Shown here in pieces: positions 1,901 through 22,300 of a stretch of DNA of 64,000 nt (positions are counted from its first letter, which is position 1; every line of letters begins with the position of its first letter). The stretch comes from Nymphaea colorata (lineage: Eukaryota > Streptophyta > Magnoliopsida > Nymphaeales > Nymphaeaceae), in contig NC_045148.1 in NCBI RefSeq assembly GCF_008831285.2, forward strand, positions 6,515,001 to 6,579,000, in the 5' to 3' direction. The position numbers and the translations under genes were made by a program. The notes below the pieces were generated by a model. The model ran no database searches and was not told the DNA's origin. It worked only from the letters and a program-made list of their open reading frames with translations.

Positions 1901-2329
1901 TGTAAGAATCATTTGGTAGGCCAACATATGTCAATGAAGAATTTTTGACACTGACTATCTTAATGTAAATATCTGGTTAAGTGCTTGCGTTTTGAGATAT
2001 CACGTCATTTAATAAAGTATGGGGTATTTTCATAATGTATAGATACCTATACGCAATTACAGATTCTTTGATGGGTTAAATCTGTAATTGCTTATAATAT
2101 AAAAGATAGTGGTCCCTGGGGTCGTGCAGAGAGAAGAATAGAGTTGAAACTTCGCTTTCTGGAGTTGTCTCTTCTCCATTTGAGAGAAACCACACGTGCT
2201 CCGCATAAACCCTGGAAGATCCTACTATGATCTCATTGTCTGGCTGTTCAGATGGATTTAGGTACGTTTGCACTACAGTTAAAATTTTGATTCGGTTATT
2301 TAGCATGAACAAAATCTTGCTGTAGGGCA
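1901..2329 (+). mobile_element. probable copia 3' LTR
   Basis: Starts TGTAAGAATC immediately after the polypurine tract and could end ...TAGGGCA at 2329. A TATA-like ATAATATAAAAG lies near 2093 and a GAGAGA-rich leader follows. The left edge is supported by the polypurine tract. The right edge is only a plausible CA, because the 5' LTR lies outside the window and cannot be compared. Confidence 0.5.
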
Positions 2330-2399
2330 TATTCGTTTGTTTGTATATGCATGAGGAAATCTCTCCATCAAAAGGATGTGAATAACATTTTTCTAGACT

Positions 2400-2830
2400 T
2401 AGAGGTTTGCCTCCCCTCTACCTTGTTCTGGCTTTCGCAGATGATGTCATCATGTTCTATAGAGCATACCTGCGATCGGTGAATTGTATTAAAGCGGTGC
2501 TTGACGACTTTAAGAGTACAGCATCTATGGTTTTTAAACCCTCCAAGTCTGCCATTGTCCCCTTCGTAGTGCCTCCTCCTCATGTCATGAATGATAACGC
2601 AGTCAACCTTGGTTGGACGATAGGCTCCCTGCCAAGTGCCTATCTCGACCTCCCTCTCTTTGAAGGTAAACTTACTGAAAGTCCCTGTGACAATCTAGTG
2701 GAAGAAGTTTCTCCCAAACTCAGTGGCTGGAAAATGAAAGAACTATCTTTTTGCGGGTAGAAGATGTCTCGTAAGGCACGTCATCTGACTCATCTCCCAA
2801 CTTGTCGCTTACTGGTCCACAGCTTTCCGG
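2400..2830 (+). pseudogene. LINE (non-LTR retrotransposon) reverse transcriptase fragment
   Basis: A 117-codon open stretch (2407-2760) reads LAFADDVIMF, then LDDFKSTASMVFKPSKS, GWTIGSLPSAYLDLPLF and KLSGWKMKELSF. These are the catalytic FADD block and the following thumb-side blocks of plant L1-type LINE reverse transcriptases. A TAG at 2758 replaces the residue expected after LSFCG, and the frame is poor beyond that. Only this scrap of the roughly 1,200-residue ORF2 remains, with no endonuclease domain nearby. It lies just beyond the copia LTR, so this part of the window is a transposon graveyard. Confidence 0.85.
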
Positions 2831-4237
2831 CTTCTGACTGGCGACATTCAAGATTTTGATGAGTCATGTCACTGGCGTGCGGTTTTTCAAAATTTTAAAT
2901 TCAATCCCCATTCTTTTTACGGACAAGGAACACCGATGTGGACTGATCAAAATATCGGTCAGTTAAATTCGTATAAAATGAAATCCAAATGTGAGCCAAT
3001 GGAACCAAAATAACAAAAGTCACAAACTCATAACTGAAGCAGTTAGTTCTTCAGGCTTATTGGTCCTTCCATACACCGTCAACCAGATGACATTATATAG
3101 TGCCTTCAGTCGATTAAGGTATAAAAAAGAAATTTTCACTCCCATTCACGGCTTATTATGGGTATATTAATTGTTCATGTACAGATTACATTTTTTTTTC
3201 ACTATGTAAAAGAATCCATATCACTCATCTCCAGACCATACCTTAGATAATGTTATGACGGAACGTGGAATTCAGCATCTGCACATCTTGCCTTATGAGA
3301 ATATAATATTCCTTTTATGAAGCTGTTTCTTTATATGGACTTTTTTTTTTCAGTATTAACGACAACGCTCTCTTTTTTCCTTTGTTTTTTTTATCAACAT
3401 TCTTCAATTAACTTTACCAACTTTGAAACAATTTAATATTCCTCATTCCGTCAGTCTCTATTCAGAAACCACTCAGTAAGAGGACCGCGTGCCACTTCCA
3501 TTTATTCATAGCAAAAAGGAGAAAGGAAAATAAAACTATTTTTTCTTATTGTACAATACATGAAACTTTATAAAAAAAAATGCATGCACATTAATGAAGA
3601 GCACTCATTTAGATGGCAACCCAAAAGGGCCAAAACCAGGTTTTGGAAGTAAAACCTGTTTTATTAACAAAGTTTGGATGGATGACATGAAATTTCGGTT
3701 TTGCCAAAATCGTGTTTTCAAAAAATATTTGCATTTTCGATGTATCATCCAACATAAAACTCATTTTGAAAAACCCTTTTACAAAAATTGCTATAAAACA
3801 AAATTTTTACAAAACTTGATTTTTGAGGGGTGTCATCCAAAACGTCATGTATAGGAAAACCTTTTTTTTATATATTTCCTGTGATGCTTATTTATAGTAC
3901 GACAGTTGAAGAACCCAAAATAAAATATGTTTATGAATTTGGAGAACATTTTACAGAAAGACGACAAATTCTTGATGGAGGCACCCAATGGGAAACGGTA
4001 CGAGTAAGAAGGCACCTTAATTCCATCTCCTACTTTTAGAGGGAAAAAAGTCATAGTTCTTATAAATCTCAAGTTCTTAAAACAGAGCAATACGCCTCTC
4101 TCATCCCTGCGAAGAAAGAGGAAAATTCATCACCCAAACTTATGGATATCTCTTCCGCACCTATTAGCCCTCAAAATGATGAAACTATTATGGGATACAC
4201 TGGGGAATGAGAGACACAGCCAAAGCTAGAGCCCTCA
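2831..4237. other. intergenic, no gene recognised
   Basis: AT-rich sequence with several short open frames (for example 3594-3854) that match nothing I recognise and have no coding-like composition. The segment 3605-3860 has phrases that look partly self-complementary (TTTTGGAAG, GTCATCCAAAACG) and could be an old MITE, but no target duplication was found. Confidence 0.5.
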
Positions 4238-4735
4238 GCCCTTGGTCGTCTTTGCCATGAGCCATAAATGGTTCTGAATTCCATGTTTCCTTTAGCTTTA
4301 GAGGTGAAGACAATCGGGAAGGATTCACTGACCATTTACAGGAGGTCCTCAAGCAGCAAGCTGCATGGCATTAACACATTCATAGACAGCGAGAACCTAG
4401 AAAAGTGTGAGGAGATCAAGAGGCTGCCTGCGTACATCAAAAAGTCTAAGATCTGTGTCCCCATCTTCTCCAAGGCTTATGTTGATTCAAAGTGGTGTTT
4501 AAAAGAGCTTGCCAAAGTAGTTGAGTGCAACAAAATGACAATCCTTGTGTTCCTTGACATGGATCTGTTGGTCATTAAAAAACAGAGTGGTCCTTATACT
4601 TCTGCGTTCCAAAGACATGAACCTGAGGAGCAGCTAAAGCCTGAGGAGGTGAGAAAGTGGAAAGAAGCATTAAAGAAAGTGGAAAATATCTCTGGTTTCA
4701 CTCGGAAGGACACAGATGGGTATGTGTGATTTCAT
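4238..4735 (+). pseudogene. TIR-domain cassette, copy A (frameshifted)
   Basis: TIR domains of plant TNL and TIR-only immune proteins are NAD-cleaving modules. The TIR frame opens GSEFHV..FSFRGEDN at 4270. It then shifts by a 7-bp insertion (CAGCAAG, about 4358-4364) and continues in the frame of an open stretch from 4268 with GINTFIDSENLEK, KKSKICVPIFSKAY, SKWCLKELAKVVEC and KWKEALKKV, up to GFTRKDTDG. The glutamate of the CLKEL motif, the position of the catalytic acid in active TIRs, is present. The sequence ends at DG|GTATGT, which resembles the donor closing a TNL first exon; no NB-ARC exon follows. Unlike copies B-D, it lacks the promoter-like block upstream. Confident as a TIR pseudogene. 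Confidence 0.85.
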
Positions 4736-6160
4736 TTTCTCTCCCACTCTTTAACATGTATGCCGTCATGATCTCTATCTTGATATATTTGTTGATGACA
4801 ATTGTTTTGGTTTCCTTCTTGTTAAAAGTTTTTGTTGGTTAAATATGATGGTCATTTTCCATTGTCTCTCTTTTTAATTATTGGCTTGCCAGAAAAATTA
4901 TCGTCCTTTCATAATTGTGTTGTCAGTGGTCTCCACCATTAGAACACACAAAAATTAACTAGTTCAAGTGTGCATCAATAATGGAAGGTAGTGTAGATGG
5001 ACCCGTCTACTACCTACTATAATTGATGACTACCTACCATTGTGGGTCTATCTACTACCTACTATAATTGATGACTACTTACTATAATTGAGCACGAAGT
5101 AGTAGGCTACTAGTAACACAATTATGAAAAGATGAAAAGGACAATTGGTTCTCTAGTTATTGATTTTCGTCCACACTGAAAGAAAACTTTTAAATTATTG
5201 TACGTACCAAACCTGCAGCGAGATATTTCAAGCTTAAGCTTCGAGTATGTACCAATTGAAAGCTTGCAGTCAAGAGTGCAATAATCGAGTGCAGACCCTC
5301 TTCAAAGAGGGCCAGCTCAAGACCCCTTTAATGATGTTGTTGATTATGATGACTCTGTGCTTCTCAAGGGCCTGCAAATAGGTGGCTCTGTGCTTCTCAG
5401 CTTCTCCAGGGCCTCCCACTTGTGCTTGGGGCTAGCTTGAGAACCTTGACCAAGGCTAGGCTAGGTCAAAAAGGTTGAGTCTAACATCTTTGACCATGCC
5501 AAGTAGGCTTATCCTAACTTCCCTAAGGATGCCTAAACCTATGCCAAGTGTGCTCATGTGTCCAATGGGATCCATGGTCGTACCTAAATGTTTCATAGGG
5601 TTCATATCACTTTCCGTTTTAACTGTGCCGATTGAGCTCAACTTGAACCTGACTGCCTAAATGCATTATTTTCTCAATATAATGCTTAATGGGTAACTTT
5701 AAGGTGAATATCATAAATTTTGTTTTTTAAGTTTGATATAGTCAAATAATATTGGTATGAAATTAAGGTAGATGAATCAATCAAACATGAACATATATAG
5801 TGAACCAACTTAAAAGTTGCTCGGCATTTGGTGCTATGACTCATTTACTAGCTACCATAATTGACGGTATCCATCATCTTCCCGTGTTCTTTTCATATGT
5901 AAGTTGGTTAATAGATGCACGATTTTTTTTTTCCTTTGAGAAACTACAATCACATTTTGAGTAGGCATGTCAATATATCTGAATTGAATTTGATATCTGA
6001 CCAAACCATATCTGAAAAATCATATATGGAAAAAAAATTAATATCTGATTAAGAAATTGGATCGGATCTAGATTTAAGAAATGACGTTCAATTGGATTCG
6101 GATATACATAAATATTCGATTTGATTTAGATAAGATTTACTTTTAGACAAGTATCCTATA
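4736..6160. repeat. array unit A, tail: intron-like segment, minisatellite and spacer
   Basis: Repeated unit shared with copies C and D and, in part, B. It begins with a T-rich intron-like stretch. About 4970-5115 holds a minisatellite built on CTACTACCTACTATAATTGA, with copies in both orientations. The block 5455-5660, with both-strand 61-codon open frames, is repeated at 14567-14772; both frames are probably non-coding. The tail closes in AT-rich DNA up to the gypsy gag remnant. Confidence 0.75.
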
Positions 6161-6164
6161 TCTA

Positions 6165-6405
6165 ATGCCATTAGGCTCCGGGACCTTTGTCTTTGATGTC
6201 TCCCCTACAGCCGCTATCAACGCACGGTGCACAACAACAAGTTCATGCTACCAGACTAATCTGGTTTCCCCAAGCTCATTGTGAAGGTCTTCGAACAGGC
6301 CATCCAAGCAAGCAGCGAGTTCTTTCATCTGATTCTCAAGAAGGGTTAGATGCTCAATGATCTGGTGGTTATCTCAACATACAGAGGACACTTGAGTCAT
6401 TAGTG
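6165..6405 (-). pseudogene. Ty3/gypsy gag N-terminal remnant, unit A
   Basis: Minus-strand reading resembles the start of plant gypsy gag proteins: HLTLLENQMKEL, GLFEDLHNELGET and KVPEPN. It contains in-frame stops and is cut off after about 80 codons by unrelated AT-rich DNA. It lies directly downstream of an iMet-type primer site in its own orientation, as gag should. Confidence 0.75.
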
Positions 6406-6473
6406 AGCCAACAGATTCTTCCAAGCGAGAGAGTACTCCTAAGTCTCAGCACCAGTAGTTATAGTCTAACCAA

Positions 6474-6485
6474 GCTTTGATACCA
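6474..6485 (-). other. retroelement primer-binding site (iMet tRNA type), unit A
   Basis: The minus strand reads TGGTATCAAAGC, one base from the TGGTATCAGAGC that pairs with initiator-methionine tRNA. It sits two bases beyond an LTR end (CCCTGTAACA on the minus strand), the normal spacing. Confidence 0.75.
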
Positions 6486-6487
6486 AC

Positions 6488-6693
6488 TGTTACAGGGATG
6501 AATTTTCTATCGTTCTCAACCTATACGGCATAAGTCCGTAGCCTAGACATACCAGCCAAACCACCACTCATACAAACAAATAAACTCGAATGAACAAGGG
6601 ATAATCCACTTTTGCCTTAACTTGAGGATTTAGTCTTTTTTCATTAAGCAAAATTTACAAGATAGTAAAAGCAAAACATGTGCCCTCTCCTCT
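6488..6693 (-). mobile_element. gypsy 5' LTR, end adjoining the primer site (unit A)
   Basis: The minus-strand LTR terminus ...TGTAACA is at 6488. The same about 210-bp block recurs beside the primer sites of units B (12571 onward) and C (15538 onward). Its outer boundary is not clear, because unit A is interrupted at 6699 by another insertion. Confidence 0.6.
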
Positions 6694-6698
6694 ACTAC

Positions 6699-9690
6699 TA
6701 ATACGGACCTACCTAGGACGATGTCGAGGCCAGCCGACAATGTGGCCAAGTGCAGCCAGGCACGTCATGGGCCGCCAGCAGATTTGAGGGGGTTAGCCAC
6801 CGAAGGCGATGGTAGGCTAAGTGAGGGTAACGCGGTGGGAGGAAATGTTGGTGGGGGTGATGAGTTTCATTGTGAGGCTATCTTTGATAGCTCTAGACGT
6901 CAGGAGGCAGCAGCCAAGAAGACAGGATCAAGGGGAGGTTGTGAGCCATGGTGAGATAGCAGTGCACGACCAGCGTCCAGGTGAGGTTATGCGTGGACAA
7001 CAGTGCACCGACAGTAGGACAGGACCCGATATAGGCCAAGCCAGTTTGAATATTGAGACTGAACCCAAGCAAGACGATAGCAGCCTAGGGCGAACCTGGG
7101 CGTGTGCAACAGCTGAACCCAGCAGCCTAGGGCGAACCTAGGCGGGTGCAAGCTGCAAGGCTCTTCAGTTACAAACGAGTCTGGGCGGAACCCAGATTGG
7201 TGCAACTCGGACTCACCAAGTCTGAGACGATTCAGAAAGCGGTCGAGCCTCACTCAGACCGAGTCACGCAAGGATTGCCTTGCTTTTGCTCTTTGCTTTT
7301 GTACTGTCTTAGTTCGAGACCTTAAGAAAACAGAGACATTGTCAAGAACTATTTAAGCTTTGTGTTAAGGGGAAACCCTAGGCAATTATTGATGTTAATG
7401 AAGATTTGAGTTTCTTTATCTCTTGTCTCTCTCTCCTTCTACCCCGACCAGCGGCTGCCGGATTCTTCACCAAACCTGACGGCCTTCTCCTCCTTCCTCT
7501 TCTTCCTCATCTATACCTTCTTCTTCTTCCTCTCCATGGCCGAAAGGAGACTACGGTTGGCGATCTTGAGGAACGGCTGCGGGCAACCACTCACAAATCT
7601 TCAAACCACGTACAACCTGACCAGCAAGCATCATTCCGATTTTCGGTGCATTCTCCCTAACCACAAGGGAGTTTAGAGGCCGAAATCGACATCTGGGACA
7701 GCAGCTCAGGTGGGCGATGCTCGTGGTTCTGGCAGCAACATCTGAGGCGGCATCGACTGGTGATCTTTGGATAAGGCAAGTACCTGATTCGCTCCTCGGT
7801 ACTTCCGTTCAAGTATTGTTTCCAGCAATCTAGGTGACCTAACATCGCTGACATACCCCCAATTCCGTCCAAGAATTGTCTAACGTGGGTATAGATCGGA
7901 TGATTTCGGTCTAGATTGTAGATCGAGCAAGGCTGAAAAGTCACTTAGAATCCGGTGCATTCTATTGCTCACAGCAGTGGTCTAACACCGGTTTCTTTTG
8001 AAGCTGATCACCGGTCTTGATCAAGATATATCTCGCCCACCTCGATTACTCATTCATTCCCTGTTATTGGCGGTGATATTTGGGAGAGAACCAGCTCAGT
8101 TCCTACGGCAATCAGACTGATTACACCATCCGGCCGGACTGCTACAACCTGTGGAAGAGGTGGCTGATAAAGTGACATTTTCTACCAACCGGTGGTTGAT
8201 TGAAGGACCGCGGAATCACTGCTAGATCTGCCCAAGACCGAGAGTCAGTTTGAACCAATTCCAACCAGCATTGAAAGAGCCATCGACCACAACCAGAATC
8301 GAGTGTCTCGGTGGCAGTGCTAGGGCAAACTCATCAGAATTTGCCCACTGATGGCAGCTTTCCCAATCTTCACGAGAATTTTGGGAAATCCACGTGATCC
8401 GATGACATTTACAGTAATGCCCCTCTCCGTTAATTAATTTGTTATCTTGGGCTTGACACCTGTTGCCCTTTTGCTCATTTGCATGGAGGACTTGAACTTG
8501 AAAAGGCAAGGAGTGGCACCGATTTTGGAGGGCGTCCTAGCAACCGAAAAGGAAAGATCTTAGTGCCACATTTGGAGGAGTTTGGAACGGTCCGAGCTCA
8601 AAAAGGCAAGCGTTTGGTGCCCATTTTGGTGAAGGAGTTACGTCTTCAAGGGCAAACCCTAACCGGCCGGCATTAGTGGAGGCAACCTCATCCAAAAAGG
8701 AAAGACCGCCACACCGAAATTGAAGGAGGAGGTCCCACGCACACCACATCCTCTTTCATTTTCTAACCGTCCCTATCTCATCTCTTTGGGAATGGCTAGG
8801 GCTGAGGTGTCCAACGAGTAAAGAGGAAGGAGTCGCACATCCACTTGACCAACATGCACCAAGGCACAAACCCACTTGAAGTCGACCCAACCGAGGATGC
8901 ACTTGAGGGAATTCAATGCAGCCACCGGTGCTTACCGGCGATTTCTTCCCCCTTCTCATTACAATGGACTGGGGTTTAAATGGTCCTCCAGTGACTTCCC
9001 TCTACATCCACCAACTCTTTACTTCTTGCTGTTAAATTGAACTTGATACGCCTTGTATTGTGTTGACAAGGTTTGGCGGGTGCTCCTGGCGCACATGGTT
9101 AGGTGTAGTCGTGATTTGTGGTCGAAGATTGAAGTGTTGCTGTAATAACGAGGTGCAGCATTGCTGCCGGCCCTTACCCTCGGTCATACTTGCTGGTTTT
9201 GACACCAGGCTAGCCCCGGTAGGTGAGAACTAAACCCCTATAGCAGGGGGGGAGGGTGCATTTGCTTTGAACCCAACCTTTGGCCTTTGCAACCAACCGG
9301 GGCTCCTCTAAGGCACGAGTGCCAAGGACACAGTCACAGGTTGCTAGGCCTACCTATGGGTGCTTAGGTGTGGTTTGGCCGCCTAGGCATATATGACAGG
9401 ATGGTTTGCTGTGGATGAATGTTTGAGTGAGCTGGGTGTTTTTATGTATCGCTCTTGGTTGTAATAAGCCTCACACCTCTCTACATTTTTGTAGTAGGCT
9501 CAAACCATGTTGGGTAACCTCACTTGTACTCCGTCCTAAGGGTTTAATTGTGCTGGGGTTGTTGTTCGACCGGGTCAACATTATTGTAATCTTTTAATTT
9601 GCCTATTTCCCTATGGTTGTCTCAAGAGATCTTGGGGGAAGGATCGGCTTTCGATAGTGGTTTTGGTCGCTATCGGGTCTGGTCCTATCA
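6699..9690. mobile_element. 2,992-bp unclassified insertion with 5-bp target duplication ACTAC
   Basis: Units B/C and C/D join directly at CTACTACACTTCTCGG-type sequence. Between A and B the same point is split, with ACTAC on both sides (6694-6698 and 9691-9695). The inserted DNA starts TAATACGGACC and ends GGTCCTATCA, so its ends form an imperfect inverted repeat (TGATAGGACC on the minus strand). A 5-bp duplication and near TG..CA ends suggest an LTR-type element on the minus strand, perhaps a non-autonomous one. No gag, pol, transposase or paired LTR was recognised. The interior is more GC-rich than its surroundings; its open frames (for example 6721-6954, 8479-8676) look incidental. Confidence 0.6.
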
Positions 9691-9695
9691 ACTAC

Positions 9696-10197
9696 ACTGT
9701 TCGGCCCGCTTGAGTTTAAGTCTACACTGCTCGGCGTGCTTGAGTTTAAGTATCTGGCCGTTCCCTCCGAGGTACCATATCCATATTTGTGCTATCAGGT
9801 GCTACCAGGTGTCCCAGCCTTCCCTTTCATAGAGGCCACGTGTCGAGGGGCTGGTAACCCTCAACTGATAGTAGTCCCTATATAGGTGTAAGAGTTGATT
9901 GCCCCTCGCATACAAGAGAAACACCAAAACCCTTGGGCTACAATAAATTTTGGACTCTATGTGGATTTCTGTGCTGCTACTTGTTTCTGCCGAGATGTAG
10001 TTTGTTGTTGTTTCCTAGGGACCATGTAAGTGTCGTCCATGGCCCTGGCTACGCCAAGCCATCCCCGGCTACGCCAAGCCATCCCCGGCCAGGGAATAGG
10101 GCAAGGTCTTTGTTCCCAACAACTTGAACAATCAAATCCAGAACAGGCCAATGAACTTGGCATCACGGTCACTTACAATGTCGACATGTACCCCTTT
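9696..10197 (+). promoter_or_regulatory. promoter-like block upstream of TIR copy B
   Basis: Block shared with C (12786-13225) and D (15748-16150). On the + strand it has a G-box core (CACGTG at 9838-9843) and then CCCTATATAGG near 9875. CCTATATAGG is a palindrome, so the TATA could serve either strand, and the whole block could equally be LTR-derived. Two local tandem duplications occur here: about 30 bp at 9690-9750, and an exact 20-bp unit (CTACGCCAAGCCATCCCCGG) twice at 10047-10086. Transcription is not shown. Confidence 0.4.
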
Positions 10198-10212
10198 GGT
10201 CATCTTTGCCAA

Positions 10213-11479
10213 GAGCCATAGATAGTTTTGAATTCCATGTTTTCCTTAGCTTTAGACGTGAAGACACTCATGAAGGATTCACTGACCATTTACATGAGGT
10301 ATTCAAGCTTCATGGCATTAACACATTCATAGACAGCGAGAACCTGGAAAAGGGTGAGGAGATCAAGAGGCTGCTTGCGTACGTCAAAAAATCTAAGATA
10401 TGTGTTCCCATCTTCTCCATAGCTTATGCTGATTCAAAATGGTGTTTAAAAGAGCTTGCGAAAATTAAGCCTGGGCACCGGGCCGGGCCGCCGCCGGGTA
10501 CCCGGTACCCGGCCCGACTCGGTCCCGGGCCCGGGCCTTGCTTTTATAGTAGTCGGCCCGTTAGTTACCGGGCTCGGCCCGGCCCGGTAACTAACGGGCC
10601 GGGCAAGGGCCAGCCGCTTTGATCGGCGGCGGCCCGCGAAGCCCGTTGTTTTTTTTTTTTTAAATGAACTACATTACTCGTTAGGGACCTAGGGTTAAAT
10701 AAAAATGAACTTGAGCTTAGAGAGTTATGGTTTACTTTTCGACCTTCCGTCGTCACCGTCGCCCGTCGAGACTCGAGAGATTGCATTTGCGGCATTGCCT
10801 CCTCTTCGCCCATCGGCTGCTCCTCCGGTCGTCGCCGTCGCCATCGGCTGCCTTCTCCGGTGACCGTGTGCCGGCTGCCGTGAAGGTCTTCAGTCTGTAA
10901 ACTATCAATGTGCCTATAAAAGAACTTGATACTCCATGGTGTTTCATCATCTGAAGCTGTAAATTGTGTTGCCTCCTGCATTCGTTGTGTCTGAGTTTTT
11001 TCAATAACGGGCCGGGCCGAAGCCCATCTCAGCCCGCCCGGCCCATTATTAATCGGGCCGGGCCGGGCCTCGGGCCTTGACCGAAGCCCGAGGCCCGATA
11101 TGACTTGGGCCCGGCCCAGCCCGTTTAGAAACGGGCCGGGCCTCGGGCCAGCCCGTTTAGAAACGGGCCGGGCCTCGGGCCAGCCCGTTTAGGTTATTGG
11201 GCTTCATTTTTACATTTTTATCGGGCCGGGCCGGCCCGGCCCGGCCCGATGCCCAGCCTTAGCGAAAATAGTGAAGTGCAACAAAAAGATAATCCTTGTG
11301 TTCTTTGATGTGGATCCATTGTACATTAAAAAATAGAGTGGTCCTTTTGCTTCCGCATTCTGAAGACAAGAATCCGGGGAGCAGCTAAAGCATGAGGAGG
11401 TGAGAAAGTGAAAAGAAGCATTAAAAAAAGTGGGAAATGTCTGCAGTTTCACTCGAAAGGACACATATGCGTATGTGTG
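10213..11479 (+). pseudogene. TIR-domain cassette, copy B (split by a MITE)
   Basis: The TIR reading SFEFHVFLSFRREDT, GINTFIDSENLEKGEEIK, KKSKICVPIF and SKWCLKELAK runs to about 10465. It resumes after a 796-bp transposon at 11270 with CNKKIILVFFDVDP. The second half carries a TAG at 11334, at the position where copy D also has TAG and copy A has CAG, and further TGA stops. The conserved GEDT is REDT here. It ends at the same RKDT..GTATGTGTGA junction as copy A. No in-frame ATG precedes the domain. A clear pseudogene. Confidence 0.88.
10466..11261. mobile_element. hAT-type MITE inside TIR copy B
   Basis: 796-bp element with GGGCC-rich terminal inverted repeats: left TAAGCCTGGGCACCGGGCCG, right (reverse complement) TAAGGCTGGGCATCGGGCCG. 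It is flanked by a perfect 8-bp duplication GCGAAAAT at 10458-10465 and 11262-11269. An 8-bp target duplication with CTGGGCA..CGGGCC ends is typical of hAT elements. No transposase is present, so it is non-autonomous. Subterminal repeats of CGGGCCGGGCC in both directions make the ends very GC-rich against an AT-rich background. Confidence 0.9.
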
Positions 11480-12200
11480 ACTTCATTTTCTCTCCCACTC
11501 TAAACATGTATGCCATCAAGATCTCTATCATTTTTTTTTCTTGTTGATATATTTGTTGATGATAACTGTTTTGGTTTCCTTCTTGTTAAAATTTTTGTTG
11601 ATTAAATGTGATGGTGCTTTTTATTTTTCTCTTTTCTTTCGTTAGTTGTGCGCTCTCTCTCTAATTATTGGCTTTTCAGGAAGATTATCGTCTTTTCATA
11701 ATTGCATTGTCAGTGTTCTTCACCATTGTCACTTGTCCAACCACTTTGTGCATCAAGTATAGTAGGCAGTCATCAATAATAATAGGTAGTAGAAGGGCTA
11801 TAAGGACATACAAAAATTAACTAGATCACTTGTTTTACCACTTCGTGCATCAATATGGTAGGTGGTCATCAATTATAGTAGATAATAGACGGGTCATATG
11901 AACACACAAAAATTAACTAAGTCAAGTGTGCATCAATAATGATTGGTAGTCATCAATTGTAGTCGGTAGTAGACAGACCCGTCTACTACCTACTATAATT
12001 GTTGACTACCCACCATTGTGGGCCCGTCTACTACCTCTATAATTGATGTCTACCTACCATAATTGAACACGAAGTGGTAGGTTGGGTCAAAAAGGTTGAG
12101 TCTAACATCTTTGACCATGCCGGGTACGCTTATCCTAACTTCCCTTAGGATGCCTAAACCTATGCCATGTCTACCCATGTGTCTAGTGGGATACATGGTT
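11480..12200. repeat. array unit B, tail with minisatellite and deletion
   Basis: Counterpart of 4736-5590 in unit A. The minisatellite of TAGTAGGTAGTCATCAATT-like units spans about 11750-12080. It runs straight into GGGTCAAAAAGGTTGAG near 12083, skipping about 350-400 bp present in units A and C. A second jump at about 12205 removes roughly 500 bp more before the gypsy remnant. Confidence 0.7.
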
Positions 12201-12243
12201 GTGCCTACATAAATATTTGATATGATTTGGATAAGATTTATTT

Positions 12244-12492
12244 TTAGACAAACATCCTATATCTAACACTATTAGACTCTGGGACCTTTATCTTTGACGT
12301 CTCCTCTGCAGCCGCTCCCAGTGCACGGCGCACAACAGCAAGTTCTTGCTGCCAGACTACTATGGTTTCCCCAAGCTCATTGTGAAGGTCTTCGAACAGG
12401 CCAACCGAGCGAGCAGCAAGTTCCTTCATTTGATTCTCAAGAAGGGTAAGATGCTCAATGATCCGATGGTTATTTGATGAAGTAGATGACAC
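12244..12492 (-). pseudogene. Ty3/gypsy gag N-terminal remnant, unit B
   Basis: Open minus-strand frame of 82 codons with HLTLLENQMKELAA, GLFEDLHNELGET, VVRRALGAA and SKIKVPES. The KIKVPEP-type motif is a landmark of plant gypsy gag just before the capsid-like region. The frame then ends in unrelated sequence, so it is a truncated 5' end and not a working gag. Confidence 0.85.
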
Positions 12493-12556
12493 TTGAATCT
12501 CAGTGAGCGAGAGTGTCTACTCCCGAGTCTCAGCACCAGTAGTCATAGCTAACCTA

Positions 12557-12785
12557 GCTCTGATACCAACTATTACAGAGATGAATTTTTCTATCGTTCT
12601 CGACCTATACGTCATAAGTTTGTAGCCTAGACATACCAGCCAAACCATCACTAGTACAAACAAGTAAACTCAGATGAACAAGGGATAACCCAGCTTTGCC
12701 TCAACTTGAGGACTTAGTCTTCTTTCATCAAGCAAAACTTACAAGATAGTCAAAGCAATACATGTGCCCTCTCTTCTACTACACT
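12557..12785 (-). mobile_element. gypsy primer site and LTR end, unit B
   Basis: The minus strand carries TGGTATCAGAGC (12557-12568), an exact initiator-methionine tRNA primer site, followed two bases away by the LTR terminus at 12571. The LTR block matches those in units A and C. Confidence 0.75.
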
Positions 12786-13225
12786 TCTCGGCCCAGTTGA
12801 GTTTAAGTATCTAGGCATTCCCTCCAAGGAACCGTATTCAAATTCATGCTATCAGATGCCCCAGCCTTCCTTTTGCAGTGGCCACGTGTCGAGAGGCTGG
12901 TAATCATCAACCGATAGTAGTCCTTATATAGGTGCAAGGGTTGATTACTCCTCGCATACAGGAGAAACACCAAAGACCCTTAGGCTACCAAAAATTTTGG
13001 ATTCCCTGTGGATTTCTGCCCTACTACCTGTTGCTGTTGAGTTGTGGCCTGTTGATTTTTCTTAAGGACCAGGTAAATACCGCCCATGGCCCTAGATACT
13101 CGAGGCCATCGCCAGCCAAGGGATAAGGTAGGGTCTTTGTTCCTAGCAACTCAAACAAACAGGTCCAAAACCAGCCAGTGAACTTGGCATCACGATCACT
13201 TACAATGTCAAACGGTACCGTCTTG
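12786..13225 (+). promoter_or_regulatory. promoter-like block upstream of TIR copy C
   Basis: Same block as in B and D. G-box core CACGTG near 12883, then CCTTATATAGG near 12921. Downstream, CAGGTAAATACC (about 13069) sits where the D copy has CTGGTAAGTACC, so a 5' splice site could lie here. Function is inferred from motifs only. Confidence 0.4.
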
Positions 13226-13244
13226 GTCGTCTGCCAAGAGCCAT

Positions 13245-13685
13245 AGATGTTTCTGAATTCCATGTTTTCCTCAGCTTCAGAGGTGAAGACACTCGGGAAG
13301 ATTCACTGAACATTTACTTGAGGTCCTCAGGCTGTGTGGCATTAACACATTCATAGACAGCAAGAACTTCGAAAAGGTGAGGAGTGCGTACATCAAAAAA
13401 TCTAAGATCTGTCTCCCCATCTTCTTCAAGGCTTATGTTGATTCAAAGTGGTGTTTAAAAGAAATTGCCAAACTAGTGGAGTGCAAAAAAAGATAATCCT
13501 TGTGTTCGTTGACGTGGATACGTTGGAAGTTAAAAAACAAAGTGATCTTATTGCTTCTGCATTCCAAAGAAATGAATATGAGGAGCAGCTAAAGCCTCAG
13601 AAGGTGAGAAAGTGGAAAGAAGCATTAAAAAAAGTGGGAAATATCTCCGGTTTCACTCAGAAGGACACATATGGTATGTATGATT
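13245..13685 (+). pseudogene. TIR-domain cassette, copy C (multiple deletions)
   Basis: TIR motifs are present but scattered over frames: FHVFLSFRGEDTR first, then a one-base loss in the GGAAGGATTC region. GINTFIDSKN is followed by a deletion of about 10 codons around the EEIKR segment. KKSKICLPIF and SKWCLKEIAK come next, then loss of bases around 13483. The last third reads open in another frame (13448-13750: LVFVDVDTLEVKKQSD, RKWKEALKKVGNISGF). The CLKEI glutamate is retained. No intact product is possible. Confidence 0.86.
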
Positions 13686-15140
13686 TCATTTTTTCTCACA
13701 CTCTAAACATGTATGCCATCATGATCTCTATCATTTTCTTTTCTTGTTGATCTCTTTTGGTTTCCTTCTTGTTAAAAATTTTTGTTGGTTCATATGATGG
13801 TCCTTTTCATTTTCCAGTTTTCTTTCTTTAGTTGTGTTTTCTCTCTTTAATTATTGTCTTCCCAAGAAGATTATCATATTTTCAATATTGTGTTGTCAGT
13901 GGTCTCCACCATTGTCACTTGTCCTACTACATTGTGCATCAATTTGTTAGGCAGTCATCAATTATAGTATATAGTAAACAGGCTATAAGGATACACCAAA
14001 ATTAATAAAGTCATTTGTCTTACCACTTCAATTATGGTAGTGGTCATCAATTATAGTAGATAGTAGATGGGTCATTGGAACACACAAAAATTAACTAGTT
14101 CAAGTGTGCATCAATAATGGTAGGTAGTCATCAATTATAGTAGGTAGTAGATGGGCCTGTCTATTACTTACTATAATTGATGACTACCTACCATAATTGG
14201 GCACGAAATGGTAGGTTACTAACAACACAATTATGAAAAGATGAAAAGGACAATTGGTTCTTCAGTTATTGATTTTCGTACACACTAAAAGAAAACTTTT
14301 AAATTATTGTACGTACCAAACCTGCAGCGAGATCTTTCAAGCTCAGGCTTCGAGTGTGTGCCAACTGAATGCTTGCAGTCATGAGTTCAATAATTGAGTG
14401 CAGACTCTCTTCAAAGAGGCCCAGCTCATGACCCCTTCTTTAATGATGTTGTTGATCATGATGGCTCTGTGCTTCTCGAGGGCATGAAAATAGGTGGCAC
14501 TGTGCTTCTCTGCTTCTCTAGGGCCTCCCACTTGTCCTGGGGGATAGTTTGAGAACCTTGACCAAGGCTAGGCTGGGTCAAAATGGTTGAGTCTAACATC
14601 CTTGACCATGCTGGGTATGATTATCCTAACTTCCCTTAGGATGCCTAAACCTATGCCAAGTCTGCCCATGTGTCTAGTGGGATCCATGGTTATGCCTAAA
14701 TGTGTCATAGGGTTCATATCACCTTCCATTTTAACTATGCTGATCAAGCTCAACGTGAACCAGATTGCCTAAAAGCTGTAGTTTCTCAATATAATGCTTA
14801 ATGGGTAACTTTAAGGTGAATATCATAAATTTTGTTTTTTAAGTATGATCTAGTCAAATAACATTGGCATGAAATTAAGGGTGATGAATCAATCGAACAT
14901 GAGCATATATAGTGAACAAACTTAAAAGTTTCTCGGCATTTGGTGCTATGACTCATTACAAGTTACTGTAATTGAGGTTATCCATCACCTTCTTGTGTTC
15001 TTCTCATATGTATGTTGGCTAATATATATACATTTTTTTTTCCTTTAGAAACTACAAGCACATTTTGAATAGGGATGTCAATATATTTGATTTGAATCGG
15101 ATATCTGACTGAACCATACATGAAAAATCAGATATGGAAA
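13686..15140. repeat. array unit C, tail: intron-like segment, minisatellite and spacer
   Basis: The most complete copy of the unit tail. The minisatellite spans about 13940-14225. A conserved spacer follows, including CCAAACCTGCAGCGAGAT (near 14317) and the 14567-14772 block, then AT-rich sequence before the gag remnant. No gene recognised. Confidence 0.75.
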
Positions 15141-15156
15141 AAAAGTTAATATCTGA

Positions 15157-15447
15157 TTAAGAAATTGGATCAGATTCAGATTTAACTAATAACATTCGAT
15201 AGGATTCGGATATGTTATTAGGCTCCGGGACCTTTATCTTTGATGTCTCCCCTGCAGCCGCTCCCAGTGCACGGCGCACAATAGCAAGTTCTTGCTGCCA
15301 AACAAATATGGTTTCCCCAAGCTCGTTGTGAAGATCTTCGAATAGGCCAACCGAGTGAGCAGCGAGTTCATTCATCTGATTCTCAAGAAGGGTTAGATGA
15401 TCAATGATCTGGTGGTTATCTGATGAAGCATATGACACTTGAGTCAT
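15157..15447 (-). pseudogene. Ty3/gypsy gag N-terminal remnant, unit C
   Basis: Best preserved of the three: 96 open codons starting MTQVSYASSDNHQIIDHLTL, with ENQMNELAAHSVGLFEDL, IVRRALGAAAGE and SKIKVPEPN. The frame is open from its ATG, about 90 bp past the primer site, then ends where element sequence gives way to AT-rich DNA. Normal gypsy polyproteins exceed 1,400 residues, so this is a truncated relic. Confidence 0.87.
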
Positions 15448-15522
15448 GAGTGAGTCAACCGATTCTTCAAAGCAAGAGGTCTCGACTCCTGAGTCTCAAC
15501 ACCAGTAGTCATAGGCTAACCT

Positions 15523-15747
15523 GACTCTAATACCAACTGCTGCAGGGACGAATTTTCTATCATTCTCCACCTGTATGGTGTACGTCTACAGCCTAGACTT
15601 ACTAGCCAAACCACCACTTGTACGAATAAGTAAACTCGAATGAACAAAGGATAACCCATTTTTGCATCAACTTGAGGACTTAGTCTTTTTTTCATCAAAT
15701 AAAACTTACAAGATAGTCAAAGCAATACATGTGCCCTCTGTTATACT
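15523..15747 (-). mobile_element. gypsy primer site and LTR end, unit C
   Basis: The minus strand reads TGGTATTAGAGTC (15523-15535), an iMet primer site with two changes. The LTR terminus starts at 15538 (minus-strand CCCTGCAGCA). The block continues in step with units A and B to about 15747. Confidence 0.7.
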
Positions 15748-16137
15748 GCACTGTTCGGCCCAATTGGGATTAAGTATCTGGTCATTCCCTCTAAGGCACC
15801 ATATTCAAATTCGTGCTATCAGGTGCTACCAGGTGTTTCAGAACCGATAGTAGTCCCTATATAGGTGCAAGGGTTGATTACTCTTTGTGTATAGGAGAAA
15901 CACCAAAGACCTTTGGGCTACCATAAATTTCAAACTCCCTGTGGATTTCTGTCATGTTGCCTGTTGCTGCCAACTTGTGGCTTGTTGTTGTTTCCTAGGG
16001 ACCTGGTAAGTACCATCCATGGCCCTGGATATGCGAGGCCATCCCCAGCCAGACGCCAAGGCAGGGTCTTTGTTCCTAGCAACTCGAACAAGCAGGTCCA
16101 GAACCGGCCAGTGAACTTGGCATCACGATTGCTTACA
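15748..16137 (+). promoter_or_regulatory. promoter-like block upstream of TIR copy D
   Basis: Shares CACTGTTCGGCCCA at its start with B. It has lost about 40 bp including the G-box: the sequence jumps from CCAGGTGTTTCAG to AACCGATAGTAG at about 15842. The CCCTATATAGG TATA palindrome is at about 15856-15866. CTGGTAAGTACC near 16003 looks like a good 5' splice site. Confidence 0.4.
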
Positions 16138-16650
16138 ATGTCGAGAGGGACCCTCTTGGTTGTCTTTGCCAGGAGACAACCAAGAGATGGTTCTAAATTC
16201 CATGTTTTCCTCAGCTTTAGAGGTGAAGACACCTGGGAAGGATTGACTGACCATTTACTTGAGATCCTCAAGCTGTGTCGGATTAACACATTCAAAGACA
16301 ACGAGAACTTGGAAAAGGGTGAGGAGATCGAAAGGCTGCTTGTGTACTTCAAAAAATCTAAGATTTGCGTCCCCATCTTTACCATCTTTACCAAGGCTTA
16401 TGCTGATTCAAAGTGGTGTTTAAAAGAGCTTGCCAAAGTAGTGGAGTGCAACAAAAAGATAATCCTTGTGTTCCTTGACGTGGATCCGCTGGACATTAAA
16501 AAATAGAGTGGTCCTATTGCTTCCACGTTCCAAAGACATGAATCCGAGGAGCAGCTAAAGCCTGAGGAGGTGAGAAAGTGGAAAGAAGCATTAAAAAAAG
16601 TGGAAAATATCTCTGGTTTCACTCAGAAGGACATAGATGGGTTTCTGTGA
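16138..16650 (+). pseudogene. TIR-domain cassette, copy D (nearly open, one stop)
   Basis: The least damaged copy. The first in-frame ATG is 16138; the open frame upstream has no ATG. From there it reads through KFHVFLSFRGEDTW, RINTFKDNENLEKGEE, KKSKICVPIF, ADSKWCLKELAKVVEC and KKIILVFLDVDPLDIKK to TAG at 16504. Beyond the TAG the same frame stays open to TGA at 16648 (EEQLKPEEVRKWKEAL, GFTQKD). A 9-bp direct duplication (ATCTTTACC, about 16375-16392) adds three residues after CVPIF. The catalytic-position glutamate in CLKEL is present. As it stands it would give a 122-residue truncated TIR; no NB-ARC follows. Confidence 0.85.
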
Positions 16651-17340
16651 TTTCATTTTCTCTCCCACTCTAAATATGTATGCTTTCATTCTCTATCATT
16701 TTCTTTTCTTGTTGATATATTTGTTGATGATAACTATTTTGGTTTCCTTCTTGTTAAAAATTTTTGTTGGTTAAAAATGATGGTCCTTTTCATTTTCCTC
16801 TTTTCTTTCTTTAGTTGCATGCTCTCTCTTTAATTATTGGCTTACCAGGAATATTATTGTCTTTTTATAATTGCATCGTTAGTGGTCTCCACCATTGTCA
16901 CTTGTCCTACCACTTTGTGCATCAAATATGGTAGGCAATCATCAATTATAGTAAATAGTAGATGGATTACAAGGACACACAAAAATTTAAGTCACTTGTC
17001 CTACCACTTCGTGCATTAATTATGGTAGGTGGTCATCAATTATAATAGATAGTAGACGGATCATAGGAACACACAAAAATTAATTAGGTCAAGTATGCAT
17101 CAATAATGGTAGGTAGTCATCAATTATAGTAGGTAGTAGACGGGCCTAGGCAGCCTACTACCTACTATAATTCATGACTATCTACCATTGTAGATCCGGT
17201 CTACTGCCTACTATAATTGATGACTACCTATCATAATTGAGCATGAAGTAGTAGGCTACTGACAACACAATTATGAAAAGACAAAAAGGACAATTGGTTC
17301 TACAGTTATTGATTTTCGTCCACACTAAAAGAAAACTTTT
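16651..17340. repeat. array unit D, tail, truncated
   Basis: Intron-like stretch and minisatellite (about 16890-17260) as in the other units. Homology stops at GAAAACTTTT near 17340, after which the sequence is unrelated. Unit D therefore lacks the spacer and the gypsy 5' end and marks the right boundary of the array. Confidence 0.75.
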
Positions 17341-19044
17341 GTATGCATAAATGTATAAATGTAATGTTTCAAAAATAGGGAAATAACATAACCGTTTCAA
17401 AAATGCATAAATGTATTGTTTAGTTTCATTTTTTTGCCTGATCGCCTAGACTTGTCTTGTCCACTCAGTCACCCAAACTGGTTATATGCACCTCTCAGTA
17501 CACAAAAAAGATTGTGCACCAAAATGCATAATGACCAAAATGCCCTTGAAAAGGAGAATCTTTTTGGTAAAGATAAAGAGGATAATGAAAAAGATAAAAG
17601 ATCAAAAATGACATTTCTTTTTAGAAATCACCCAAATACCTTACGCACCTCTTTTATGGGTGTATATTTGCTGTGTGCATAGGGTAAACACAACTCGCTC
17701 TCCTTAGTCACACAATCATTCTCATGCAGCAGCAATTCATGCCCTCTTTCCAAAGCCTCTTATCTTATCATGACCCTCAAATGCAGGCCTGGATTTTTTC
17801 TGTGAGGACTTCAATGATCAATCGAATACATGATCAGCACTGAAAGACACGGATATGGACCAGCGACATACTTGTGTGATCACATACATCATGCCATTAT
17901 TTTGCAATTCCAGATTTTTACTACTTCAAGTCCAATCTCGTCCTTGGTTCAGAACCTTTCAAACATTTTATTATTTTCTCACGATGGTCTGTGGTATTTA
18001 TCCTTTTCTTCCCCTAAACCGTTTTAACTGTGACCATACACATGGGGGTGGGTGGGTGTGTGTATCTTGCACCCCAGTTTTCTAAAATCACTTTCCATAT
18101 GAATCGCAAGAATTGTTCTTTCTGTGTGATTTTACAATGTTTTTCAATCGTCTTGGTCTCTCCCTTTTCTCTGTTGATATCTTCAATTGCCAGATATAGG
18201 TCATTCTTTCAAATCTTTGGCCTCATGCCTCCTAAATCAACAGTATCTAAATCCTATAAAAGCATTGATGTTTCGCCAGAATCAAATAGCATCGAATCTG
18301 AATGATGCCTACCTAGTCTTATGTCATGACAGAACAGTATAAATAACTCATTTCGGGCTAAGAAAAGAAAATATTTGGAAAAGAATTAGCTATAATAAGA
18401 TGAACTGCTTGTTAGGATACCAGATAGGCAAGATAACTAAATGATAAAGAAACTGTGAAGCATAACTAAATTAGGTTTAGCTAGTAGACTTGTCAATTCG
18501 CTTGAGGTGGCATTCCAAAAGATCAACTATGCAAGATTGTGGGACAAGCAGTGGCTTTCCCAGATAAGTGGAGAATCTAAAGAGGAAATGTTTATGAAAA
18601 TAATAGGATGCACGTTACTCAGGTGACAGTGACAGAGCGAAAGCTCTCAAAAGGTTACCATCGTCAAAACTCAAGATGGAAAATAGTGTATTCAAAGTTC
18701 AAACTACAAAAAGAAACTGTAGATTTAAGTGAAGAAGACATTCCACAACTACGGGCAGTAGTCCGTCAACCACCAGCATTGTCTAAGACTAATAACTGAA
18801 GAACTGTATCATCCTTATCTCTTCTTCTGCTTATGGGAACGTTTCATATGCAACTTAGCCAAATGTCAAGAGAAAATAGATGAACGTAAATAAATTCATC
18901 TATTACGTAATTGCATCAGCTTGTTTCCAGCGCTAATTAGTAAAAAGCTTTTTTAGTGCCAGGTTTTCAAATCCAATTTAGGCACATGCCAAGAGAAAGC
19001 AATGATTTAAGCAATCTGCCAATTTCCCCAGTTTCTATCAAAAC

Positions 19045-19091
<47 letters not shown>

Positions 19092-19392
19092 TGTGTGTGA
19101 GAGAGAGAGAGAGAAAGAGAGTTTGTGTCATGCTTCAAGTTTGTGTCTCTAACACACAAATAATTGATTATTTGACAAAAGGGTGTCTTATCCTACAAAC
19201 TGAAACTATTGAGGACATCATGGACAGGTGCCAGAATGAGAATGACTATAGGACCAGTAACTTTTGAACGGTTTCTGAAAATTACAAAGCCAAGCCAACT
19301 GCAGATTCAATAAATGCTAATCCATGGCTCCATGAATTACCGGACAAGCCCTCCACCTCAAGTCCCGAATCATACATCATTCAACAGTTATA
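17341..19392. other. intergenic region, no gene recognised
   Basis: AT-rich, with scattered short open frames (17416-17682, 18608-18799) of no recognisable family. The right part may include the 3' untranslated region of the Mpv17-family gene, whose stop codon is at 19393. Confidence 0.5.
19047..19120. repeat. (GA)n microsatellite with a GT interruption
   Basis: About 21 GA units, a short GTGTGTG break, then another GA run. Confidence 0.95.
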
Positions 19393-22300
19393 TTACATGT
19401 CTCTCAACTTCAAGTACATTGTTCGTGCACGAAGATTCAGAAATATGCCCCTGATAATGAAAGAAGCAGCAAACTTATATGACTGATCTCGTGAATACTG
19501 AATAGTCTAAATAGCAAATAATTTATGAAAAGTCAAGAATATGTACCAGCCGCACGCAACAAAACTATGGAACATAACACGGAATTGCAAAGGCATATAT
19601 CTGTGATTTATCCAACCAACTAGGGGCCAAAACTGAAGATTTTTGTTAGTCTCTAGAAAAGGGAAAAAAGCATCAAAGAAAGAAGCACTGTGTAATAAGG
19701 CCATATATATACCATCCAAGCAGTCAACTGAACTGACGGATAATCTTTCTTAATTCTGGTTTTAACCTGAAACCATGGCCTTCCTGTGGAGCCACAAATA
19801 GTCTTAACTAAGTAAAACAAAAATAAAGATCAAATATAAAAACATGATGCTTACAGACAGAAAATTCCATTGTGAAATCAGTAAGTAAATTTCAGCTAAT
19901 CAAATTACTGTCAAGAGTTAGACAAAGAACAATTAGTTAACAAGAACATTATAGCAAAAATACTGCTAGTCACGCAGCAGAATTCCTGGAAGTTATGACT
20001 ATGTAGAATCCTAAATGGTAGGCCACAGAAGCATGCTCTTCAATGAGAGTGCCCAAAAATCTGCACTTTTTTCTTCATTCCTCAACCATCCTGATGAATT
20101 GCAGGCTTTAGCACCTTAAACTCACTCAGATAAAGTGCTCAAATTGGTGCATCTTAATCCAAGTATTTAATTATCAAAGTAAAAGAGACTTTCAAGAGAA
20201 TGTTTCGATGATTTCAATCAGAAAAAGCAAAGTCCTTGAAAGAAATCAAAGGGCACAAAGTAAGTCTGACATCATCCAGACAAGCAAAATTGTCAAGCAA
20301 GCTACTCGGAATTTCTCACTTATGGCATGCCCGATTGCCAGGAAAAGAAAGTTGATAAAACTCAGTCCCACACATTTCATTGCACAACTGAGTCATGAGA
20401 TGTTCTATACCATGTTCCAATAATGAAGATTACAAATGGGCAAACCATCCAGGCACCCTTCTCCAGCATCTGGACATGCCTTTATATCTCAAAACAATGT
20501 TAAGACATCTATCAGTTTCAAATTTAAGCAGACCCTAAAGTACTCCGTACATGCCAAAGAATTCTTTTATGCACAAAAGGAATGTGAAATAAGAAAAGGA
20601 AACCTTCTCAGTAACAAGATAATTTCAATCTAGAAAGTTGCTGGACATTCTAGGATTTACGAATTAGAAGACCTAGACCTAGATTTCCATGGAACTTTCA
20701 GACCAGAAAATTATATAGATCTTAGAACAATGTATAATAATTTTCAATGCCAACAGTGCCAAAGTCTTCTAACATGCTAAGTTGTTAACCAACATGATGT
20801 GGCATGTATAAAGGATCTACTTGGCATCTAGGGATGACATTACTGACACTATATTTTTACTGAAAAAAAGGATATCTATGATCTTAAGCAGGCCTATGGA
20901 TTGGCTCTGAAATATTAATGATCAATGCTCATCATATTAGAAATTTTTGAAAAAAAAAAGCAGATACTATGAAAAACAAAAATACTTTAAAATATTGCCT
21001 AAACCAAATATATTGCTAAAGAATTTATCATAATCTTTGTATCCAAATACCTCCCATTTATGTTCTATAAAATTCAAGAAAGGACAACACAAGGATGTGC
21101 TTTGAAAGTAATCAGTTTAAGAACATTGATAGAAATAATCACTTTGCATCAGCCTAGCATAAGGCAGACATTAGCGATATAGACATGACCCGCTGTATGC
21201 CTAGACAGGCTTCTATCACCTTAACTTTTATAAGGACTAGACCATGACAAATTTCAGAAGAACCAGTCTCTGAGGCAACAAAACACTTCATTTTAACTAG
21301 ACTATGTTTGACTTACTGCAAGTCAAGGATTGTTTTTGTGCATGTCAAAGAGAGCCATAACAAGGCTGAAATGCATTAAATGCAACATACTAAAACAGCA
21401 TTATATAAGATAACATACCAAACAAAAGCTACTAGGATTCCTTTGTATGATAATTAAGCAAGAGACTTCTAATAAAATGTTAGTCACAGGATGGAATGCA
21501 TGATTTATTTAGCTTGGACTGCTTTGCATTCTTTCTGATCTTGTTTGTACAAAGCAACACTTAACACTAACCAAACCTCAACATCAACCATATCAAGAAT
21601 CCCAAAGGCTCTTTACATTAGTTATGTAATCAAAGGAGGGACTTCTAACAGAATGCCAGTTTTTGGATGGATGCACTTTTAGGCCTTTTGATTATCACAA
21701 ATCATGTCTGACCCAAGTAAATCACAGACAGATGTGGTCCTGGTCTACACCTCCATGGTAAACCTGAAGAGGCTACAAACAACAGCACCTAATTCCTAAA
21801 GTATGTCTATGCATACTTCTGCTATGAAATAACTAAAATAAGCCACTGGTCTCTTCAGAGACATCCGATAAAATTATAACTAAAATAAGTGACTGAACAA
21901 TTCTGATTCTAAGAAAAGTTCCAGAAAGTGAAAAACTCTGGATACAAAATTTTTAGTTTAGTTGCCTATTGATTTCTTGACTGATATAAGAACTCCCGGT
22001 AATTACACTAACATCAGTATCAGAATCATGTAAGGCTTATCATGGTGGACATATCAACCTTGCTTTCCAGGATTCATATACTCCATGCATCAGGATGCCA
22101 GTTTACATCATACCTCATTTTGTTCCATGAAAAATCCTCATATCAATAGTCCCATGCACTAATTGATGGTGTCTCTATGCTGAAGTGGAGACAAAGCCAG
22201 CTTGAGTAGTGGCTACAGACCAGGGTGACACCCAGATTGAAACCTTGCATTACATGATTATTATCAGGCTTGGGCCAAGCTCAGGTACCATAACCCATGA

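Follow-up and report, generated by a model that had tools for sequence, protein, structure and literature searches.

NLR pseudogenes in cacao have been discussed, in the accessible part of the report, in terms of local duplication, unequal crossing-over and birth-and-death, crossing-over not having been tested explicitly there (PMC12405883). In pepper, tomato, potato and rice, LTR-mediated retroduplication of NLRs has been reported and, according to the available portion of that text, is marked by intron loss (PMC5664825). The window analysed here is a stretch of 64,000 nucleotides from Nymphaea colorata (NC_045148.1, 6,515,001 to 6,579,000; positions below count from its first letter). Within it, TIR exons alternate with retroelement remnants in four units, A to D, the features of which are listed in Table 1. 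We propose that the array, very probably, arose when the 5′ end of a TNL-type resistance gene was duplicated in tandem, and has since decayed.

Self-alignment resolved four tandem units within 4239-17340, 79-93% alike by segment. Strong matches join 12270-14300 with 15216-17340 (80%, 2015 bits), 14073-15747 with 4937-6696 (82%) and 11262-12081 with 16432-17255 (86%). The parallel diagonals expected from the sequence-only reading are therefore present, far above the top score of 33.7 bits in 20 dinucleotide shuffles of the region, and the tandem array is confirmed. The copies differ at 7-21% of aligned sites, depending on the segment; JC distances are mostly 0.12-0.19, with a maximum of 0.25 in the block upstream of the TIR exon. 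Units B and C keep the common order claimed earlier, namely block, TIR exon, intron, bidirectional minisatellite, spacer and, on the opposite strand, gag start, primer-binding site (PBS) and LTR, with most of the spacer of B deleted. Unit D stops in the spacer at 17340 and is without the LTR end. Unit A has no block, and what had been described as an absence is a native 5′ end that was kept.

Two pieces, of 3 kb between A and B and of 0.8 kb inside B, are later insertions flanked by target-site duplications (TSDs). Units A and B, formerly given separate starts, were contiguous until the 2,992-bp piece (TSD ACTAC) entered. It gave no Pfam match and has no long direct repeats, and is perhaps a decayed LTR-type element. 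The hAT-like insert (TSD GCGAAAAT) splits the exon of copy B.

Table 1. Features of the array and its left flank, in positions of the window.
Feature	Position	Strand	Evidence or remarks
Native 5′ flank and TIR gene start, copy A	3358..4238	+	homology to L040, L041, L035
TIR exon copy A	4239..4719	+	PF01582, E=3.5e-23; 7-bp insertion shifts frame of first part against the rest; stop near start
Rest of unit A: intron, minisatellite, spacer, MITE-like repeat, then minus-strand gag start, PBS, LTR (6170-6698)	4720..6698		array alignment
Insertion between A and B, 2,992 bp	6699..9690		TSD ACTAC; ends TAATA...TATCA
Chromovirus LTR outer part and integrase piece before TIR copy B	9691..10192	-	first 30 bp duplicated
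TIR exon copy B, first part	10193..10465	+	PF01582
hAT-like non-autonomous insert in TIR copy B, 796 bp	10466..11261		TSD GCGAAAAT; G+C-rich terminal inverted repeats
TIR exon copy B, second part	11262..11470	+	carries stops
Unit B intron, minisatellite, internally deleted spacer	11471..12269		array alignment
Unit B gag start, exact PBS (12557-12569), 213-bp inner LTR (12571-12783)	12270..12783	-	self-alignment
Chromovirus LTR outer part and integrase piece before TIR copy C	12784..13221	-	homology to relatives
TIR exon copy C	13222..13673	+	several frameshifts
Unit C intron start (to 13870), foldback-like minisatellite (13871-14247), spacer, MITE-like repeat (15070-15213)	13674..15214		homology
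Unit C gag start, degenerate PBS (15524-15536), inner LTR	15215..15747	-	homology
Outer chromovirus LTR, with internal deletions, before TIR copy D	15748..16068	-	homology
Chromovirus integrase fragment joined to TIR copy D	16069..16153	-	homology
TIR exon copy D	16151..16640	+	PF01582, E=1.5e-30; in-frame TAG
Unit D intron, minisatellite, first 87 bp of spacer; array end	16641..17340		array alignment

The Pfam TIR domain (PF01582) was detected in all four copies. In a tree of 11 sequences these exons form one clade (100/100) with L031 as sister, a locus where TIR, NB-ARC and LRR frames are present. Among the relatives of copy A with a solved structure are Roq1, L6 and RPP1. The array exon belongs to the TNL family of this genome. 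No copy retains a TIR frame open over the whole exon (0/4), frameshifts and/or stops being found throughout; copy A is nonetheless open across most of the TIR match. The splice-donor-like GT claimed for every exon end is indeed present in the four copies, as GTATGT in A, B and C, though in D as GTTTCT. The claim that no NB-ARC or LRR exon follows likewise stands, neither being detected at E<=0.1 by six-frame Pfam search of 1-22335 apart from the TIR exon 4239-4729 (stretches 1-4238, 4730-9690, 9691-12780, 12781-17340 and 17341-22335). Between copies, dN/dS is 0.43-0.82, with Fisher p<0.05 in three of the six pairs, which are non-independent. The ratio is below 1 in all six; for some time after they were duplicated, part of the copies may still have been constrained.

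What distinguishes copy A from the others is its left edge. A second copy of the segment 3358-4200 lies some 35.6 kb upstream (L040; 84% over 903 bp). Homology to other TIR genes crosses the edge of A at 4239: 4158-4426 is continuous with a TIR gene in L041 and 4158-4730 with L035. None of the six loci compared gave a chromovirus match at 3900-4500. In B, C and D, TIR homology to L041 starts at 10192, 13223 and 16151 respectively, which is the integrase junction. From this comparison, copy A is the one that keeps the native gene start, not one that lost a promoter, and the duplicated segment would have started inside TIR exon 1.

The block preceding copies B, C and D had been called promoter-like. 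By homology to other loci it is a minus-strand chromovirus (Ty3/gypsy) LTR followed by about 85 bp of integrase, a relationship that eliminates it as a TIR promoter. It is found on several contigs and has the same orientation as the gag piece; the retroelement part accordingly reads gag-PBS-LTR-integrase. An assignment of the whole block to the internal 3′ end of the element was rejected, the greater part being LTR. In four of the seven loci tested, its first part is overlapped by long direct repeats (LTR pairs). For all six loci compared, the homology to chromovirus stops at 10186-10194 (B), 13209 (C) and 16144-16153 (D), and in copy C 13 bases separate this end from the start of TIR homology. 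Beyond the junction the relatives continue in frames that, judged by eye from the motif, look like integrase. In the relative L025, Pfam places SH3_Tf2-1 and Chromo domains between the integrase stretch and its LTR, the chromodomain being found by Pfam in L025 only and not in the array. A Pfam gag domain adjoins the matching gag stretch in L022 and L036; the short gag piece of the array and its minus-strand block ORF gave no Pfam match. Units A, B and C carry a minus-strand PBS-like stretch, which presumably pairs with tRNA-iMet and is exact (TTGGTATCAGAGC) in B only. The array shows the features of a chromovirus, namely gag start, PBS, LTR and integrase, the chromodomain being found in the family. 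That internal sequence borders the LTR at either end calls for two elements in tandem, or for one insertion nested in another together with a deletion. Seven pattern matches on viral contigs included no relatives.

Behind the exons, the intron start is retained in the array and is homologous to introns of L032, L033 and L034. In a genome search the matches of the unit spacer were confined to the array (four of four candidates), an absence elsewhere that does not prove rarity, and this speaks against a dispersed family. The earlier idea of a TIR first exon and a retroelement 5′ end amplified as a unit thus holds for the tandem arrangement, the lack of NB-ARC/LRR and the opposite-strand gypsy 5′ end inside it; of an amplified cassette family there is no sign. 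At the right end, 17341-22335 contains neither integrase nor NB-ARC. This end, at 17340, is a point against the duplication model, which does not account for it.

How could such an array have arisen? At the outset, copy A would have been a TIR first exon that still had its own start. In and after its first intron lay a foldback-like minisatellite, a repeat resembling a MITE and, in antisense, a degraded piece of chromovirus (gag-PBS-LTR-integrase). A segment with one end within the TIR exon (at 4239) and the other within the integrase, taking in the intron and the nested mobile elements, would then have been duplicated in tandem, possibly joined at CC/CCC microhomology; the junction microhomology is 2-4 bases, a length at which chance is possible. 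From two tandem copies, unequal crossing-over may have lengthened the array. The copies would afterwards have diverged, taken the two further insertions and lost the intact TIR frame, and a deletion at 17340 may have removed the remaining gene. Direct support covers the tandem order, the native edge of A, the common integrase-TIR junction, the chromovirus identity, the TSDs, the broken frames and the spacer, for which the genome search gave no copy outside the array. Besides the right end, what weighs against the model is dN/dS below 1, the largely open frame of copy A, the 13 bases at the junction in C and the LTR with internal sequence at either end. The copies are adjacent, share one junction, form a single clade and are decayed, as in a tandem array of NLR-fragment pseudogenes. 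The array is probably debris of NLR birth-and-death, and resembles what the turnover of gene clusters ordinarily leaves behind; it does not look like a novel type of element. Its composition, for which the sequence-only reading knew no named family, needs no new one; among the literature searched, in which subscription journals are poorly covered, no title or abstract opening names it.

An improbable alternative is that a chromovirus captured the TIR exon in antisense, giving a chimeric element whose copies came to lie in tandem with common LTRs. In element orientation the unit does read LTR-PBS-gag-TIR cassette-integrase-LTR, with single LTRs between units, and retroduplication has the precedents cited above. 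Against capture stand copy A, which lies in native gene context across the junction, the intron start, kept where a retroduplicate would have lost it, and the spacer, whose matches in the genome search, where absence does not prove rarity, all lay in the array and so gave no dispersed LTR-bounded copies. On these grounds capture was rejected. Quite improbable, too, are units made by unequal recombination between the LTRs of two elements that lay in the same orientation on either side of the TIR exon, the LTRs being the unit ends. An LTR does lie between successive TIR copies, bordered by gag and, at its other end, by integrase; this reading, however, predicts LTR and integrase before copy A, where native gene sequence is found instead, so that the left end of A would need a separate event. 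It is very doubtful that, after duplication, antisense transcription out of the chromovirus LTR once let B-D make short TIR proteins, led by a stretch of retroelement origin and subject to selection, before the copies died. The selection in it is drawn from dN/dS below 1; a TATA-like stretch lies near 15860 in the LTR before copy D, and an open frame at 15895-16506 extends from the LTR and the integrase fragment into TIR copy D. An assembly artefact, suggested by similar units arrayed in a repeat-rich region, is scarcely conceivable and was dismissed, given the divergence of the copies and two private insertions with TSDs.

Under the preferred reading, tandem duplication of a gene 5′ end, the locus shows how part of a resistance-gene exon inside a transposon nest can undergo tandem duplication while the gene start is left out, and how easily a promoter may be seen in what is a retroelement. 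It is a clean example for the annotation of TIR fragments and leaves the general picture unchanged.

Compared with exon 1 of TNL genes, the array shares the TIR domain, the GT after the exon and an intron start common to TIR loci of this genome, NB-ARC and LRR frames being present as well in two of these loci (L032 and L033); it differs in having no detected NB-ARC/LRR exons and in that every copy is broken. With chromoviruses it has in common the gag start, iMet-type PBS, integrase and LTR, and the chromodomain of its relative, but it holds only a degraded gag-PBS-LTR-integrase stretch. As in the retroduplicated NLRs, to the extent that the accessible text describes them (PMC5664825), NLR sequence adjoins LTR element sequence; unlike them, the array keeps an intron start and a native copy, and a dispersed chimera was not found. 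With the cacao pseudogenes, as the available part of that report presents them (PMC12405883), it shares decay and local duplication, possibly of already dead copies, the difference being that its unit consists of exon 1 and transposon remnants only.

Long parallel diagonals in a BLASTN comparison (E ≤ 1e-10) of positions 3501–18500 with the window are confined to 4239–17340 and score far more than 33.7 bits, the highest self-match among 20 dinucleotide shuffles. This bears out the repeated order that the sequence-only reading had described for 4238–17340. In the four-copy alignment of the tandem units A–D, the segment distances correspond to 83–93% identity for the TIR exon, intron, minisatellite, spacer, MITE-like repeat, gag and LTR (ungapped positions, in pairs sharing over 60 aligned sites), and to 79–82% for the block preceding the TIR exon in B, C and D; by BLASTN, the block of D is 77% identical to that of C and 70% to that of B. 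Unit C represents an intact period of ~2.97 kb. With its inverted arms, the minisatellite resembles foldback-type elements.

Inserted and repeated features of the array, and other features of the window
Feature	Position	Length	Description
Insertion between A and B		2,992 bp	5-bp duplication ACTAC; ends TAATA...TATCA
Insertion splitting TIR copy B		796 bp	8-bp duplication; G+C-rich terminal inverted repeats
Minisatellite	13871–14247 and equivalents in other units		20-bp units in both orientations; 30-bp inverted flanking arms
Mpv17/PMP22-family exon, right of array	~19.5–19.8 kb, minus strand
Copia-type retrotransposon remnant	31–1530		RVT_2 match at ~31–726, plus frame, E = 9.4e-55; more open frames to 1530
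Second retroelement	33168–34070, minus strand		Open frames resembling copia RT/RNase H (by eye)

The Pfam TIR domain is present in all four copies, and among solved proteins copy A is closest to Roq1, flax L6 and RPP1. Every copy is broken: A has a frame-shifting insertion and an early stop, B carries three stops besides a hAT-like insert, C contains frameshifts and D one stop. The dN/dS values among them range from 0.43 to 0.82 (Fisher tests on the pairs, p 0.004–0.57, below 0.05 in three of six), and by segment distances the exon as a whole is not more conserved than the intron or spacer, a pattern that fits decay, perhaps with a degree of constraint once the copies had arisen. Six-frame searches of 1–4238, 4730–9690, 9691–12780, 12781–17340 and 17341–22335 gave no NB-ARC or LRR at E ≤ 0.1, in agreement with the earlier claim that no such exon follows the TIR exon. 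The exons A–D form one clade (100/100), within which branching is weakly supported; among 11 other TIR sequences its sister is L031 (99/97), a locus carrying TIR, NB-ARC and LRR frames. L041, a TIR gene at C2:22.696 Mb, was left out of the tree because its exon is split.

The block had been described as promoter-like. Eighteen stretches of the same genome were fetched and all were compared with the array features; of 13 picked for chromovirus parts, 12 matched, the exception being L026. The inner LTR piece and the first part of the block stand together at both element ends in L021, L022, L030 and L036, and direct repeats of 675–866 bp confirm these as LTR pairs (four of seven loci tested; the others have repeats of 228 bp in L037, 219 bp in L025 and none in L023). 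The plus-strand LTR end GGTCTTACA occurs at 6 of 16 edges, with close variants at five, none at four and one edge sequence incomplete. In relatives, frames over the last 85 bp of the block read as integrase (motif by eye); this stretch lies 0.83–0.86 kb from the LTR in L025, L027, L028 and L030, 130 bp from it in L023, and in another order relative to it in L038. Between this stretch and the LTR, L025 carries SH3_Tf2-1 and Chromo domains, and a Pfam gag domain adjoins the matching gag stretch in L022 and L036; for the gag and block frames of the array itself there was no Pfam match. The LTR pairs, integrase-like frames and Chromo domain of the relatives thus displace the promoter reading, and by sequence comparison the block consists of chromovirus LTR and integrase sequence, sharing its strand with the gag piece. 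The retroelement part of the array therefore runs gag–PBS–LTR–integrase, with internal sequence on both sides of the LTR, an arrangement that may have come from tandem elements or from nested insertion with deletion. The C15 chromovirus relatives L021, L022 and L036 are ~4–5 kb long with LTRs and gag, and are perhaps non-autonomous.

Homology to L041 (4158–4426) crosses the edge of A, as does that to L035, likewise from 4158. L041 homology begins in B, C and D at 10192, 13223 and 16151, and chromovirus homology ends at 10186–10194, 13209 and 16144–16153, respectively (six of six loci); none of six chromovirus loci matches 3900–4500 around A. Homology to L031 and L032 begins deeper in every copy of the exon and is uninformative on the native copy. 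CC or CCC is common to the joined sequences at the junction (by eye). The 5′ flank of A (3358–4200) has a second copy, L040, ~35.6 kb upstream at 84% identity, with no TIR match beside it among the matches listed (150 of 263 candidates scored). Without the 2,992-bp insertion, the A end and B start resemble the B/C and C/D junctions by eye; the 796-bp insertion has features like those of hAT-type non-autonomous elements. Since both insertions are later, A–B–C–D was formerly one contiguous array.

The genome searched comprised 407.8 Mb in 783 contigs (window at G000:C11:6515001-6579000); PMC7015852 reports Nymphaea colorata as 409 Mb, 804 scaffolds and 14 pseudo-chromosomes. Unit C had at least 56 matches, at least 18 inside the array and at least 38 outside, these being lower bounds from 40 of 2,345 candidates scored; sorted by query range, those outside include at least 15 to gag/LTR, 14 to the MITE-like repeat, four to the block and five to TIR. 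The block gave 35 matches, 32 outside the array (29 of 29 candidates scored), and the TIR protein at least 150 (150 of 263 scored), many in a cluster on C2. The four matches to the spacer (4 of 4 candidates) all fall within the array, although absence of a match is no proof of rarity.

The simplest history would start from a TNL-type exon 1 that had transposon remnants both within the adjoining intron and beyond it. A single tandem duplication, one end of it lying in the TIR exon and the other in the integrase, would have been followed by unequal crossing-over that lengthened the array, and then by decay, the two insertions and loss of the right end. Retro-capture of the TIR exon by a retroelement is disfavoured, because the intron is kept, the array holds a native copy, A, and dispersed chimeras are lacking in the genome search with the spacer. 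Distances of 0.12–0.19 over most segments would suggest several million years or more. Local NLR duplication, pseudogene duplication and unequal crossing-over are among the usual routes discussed in PMC12405883, and a figure legend of PMC7015852 names tandem duplication for resistance-gene expansion in N. colorata. Set beside these routes of local NLR duplication, the array is one more case, unusual in its mix of parts.
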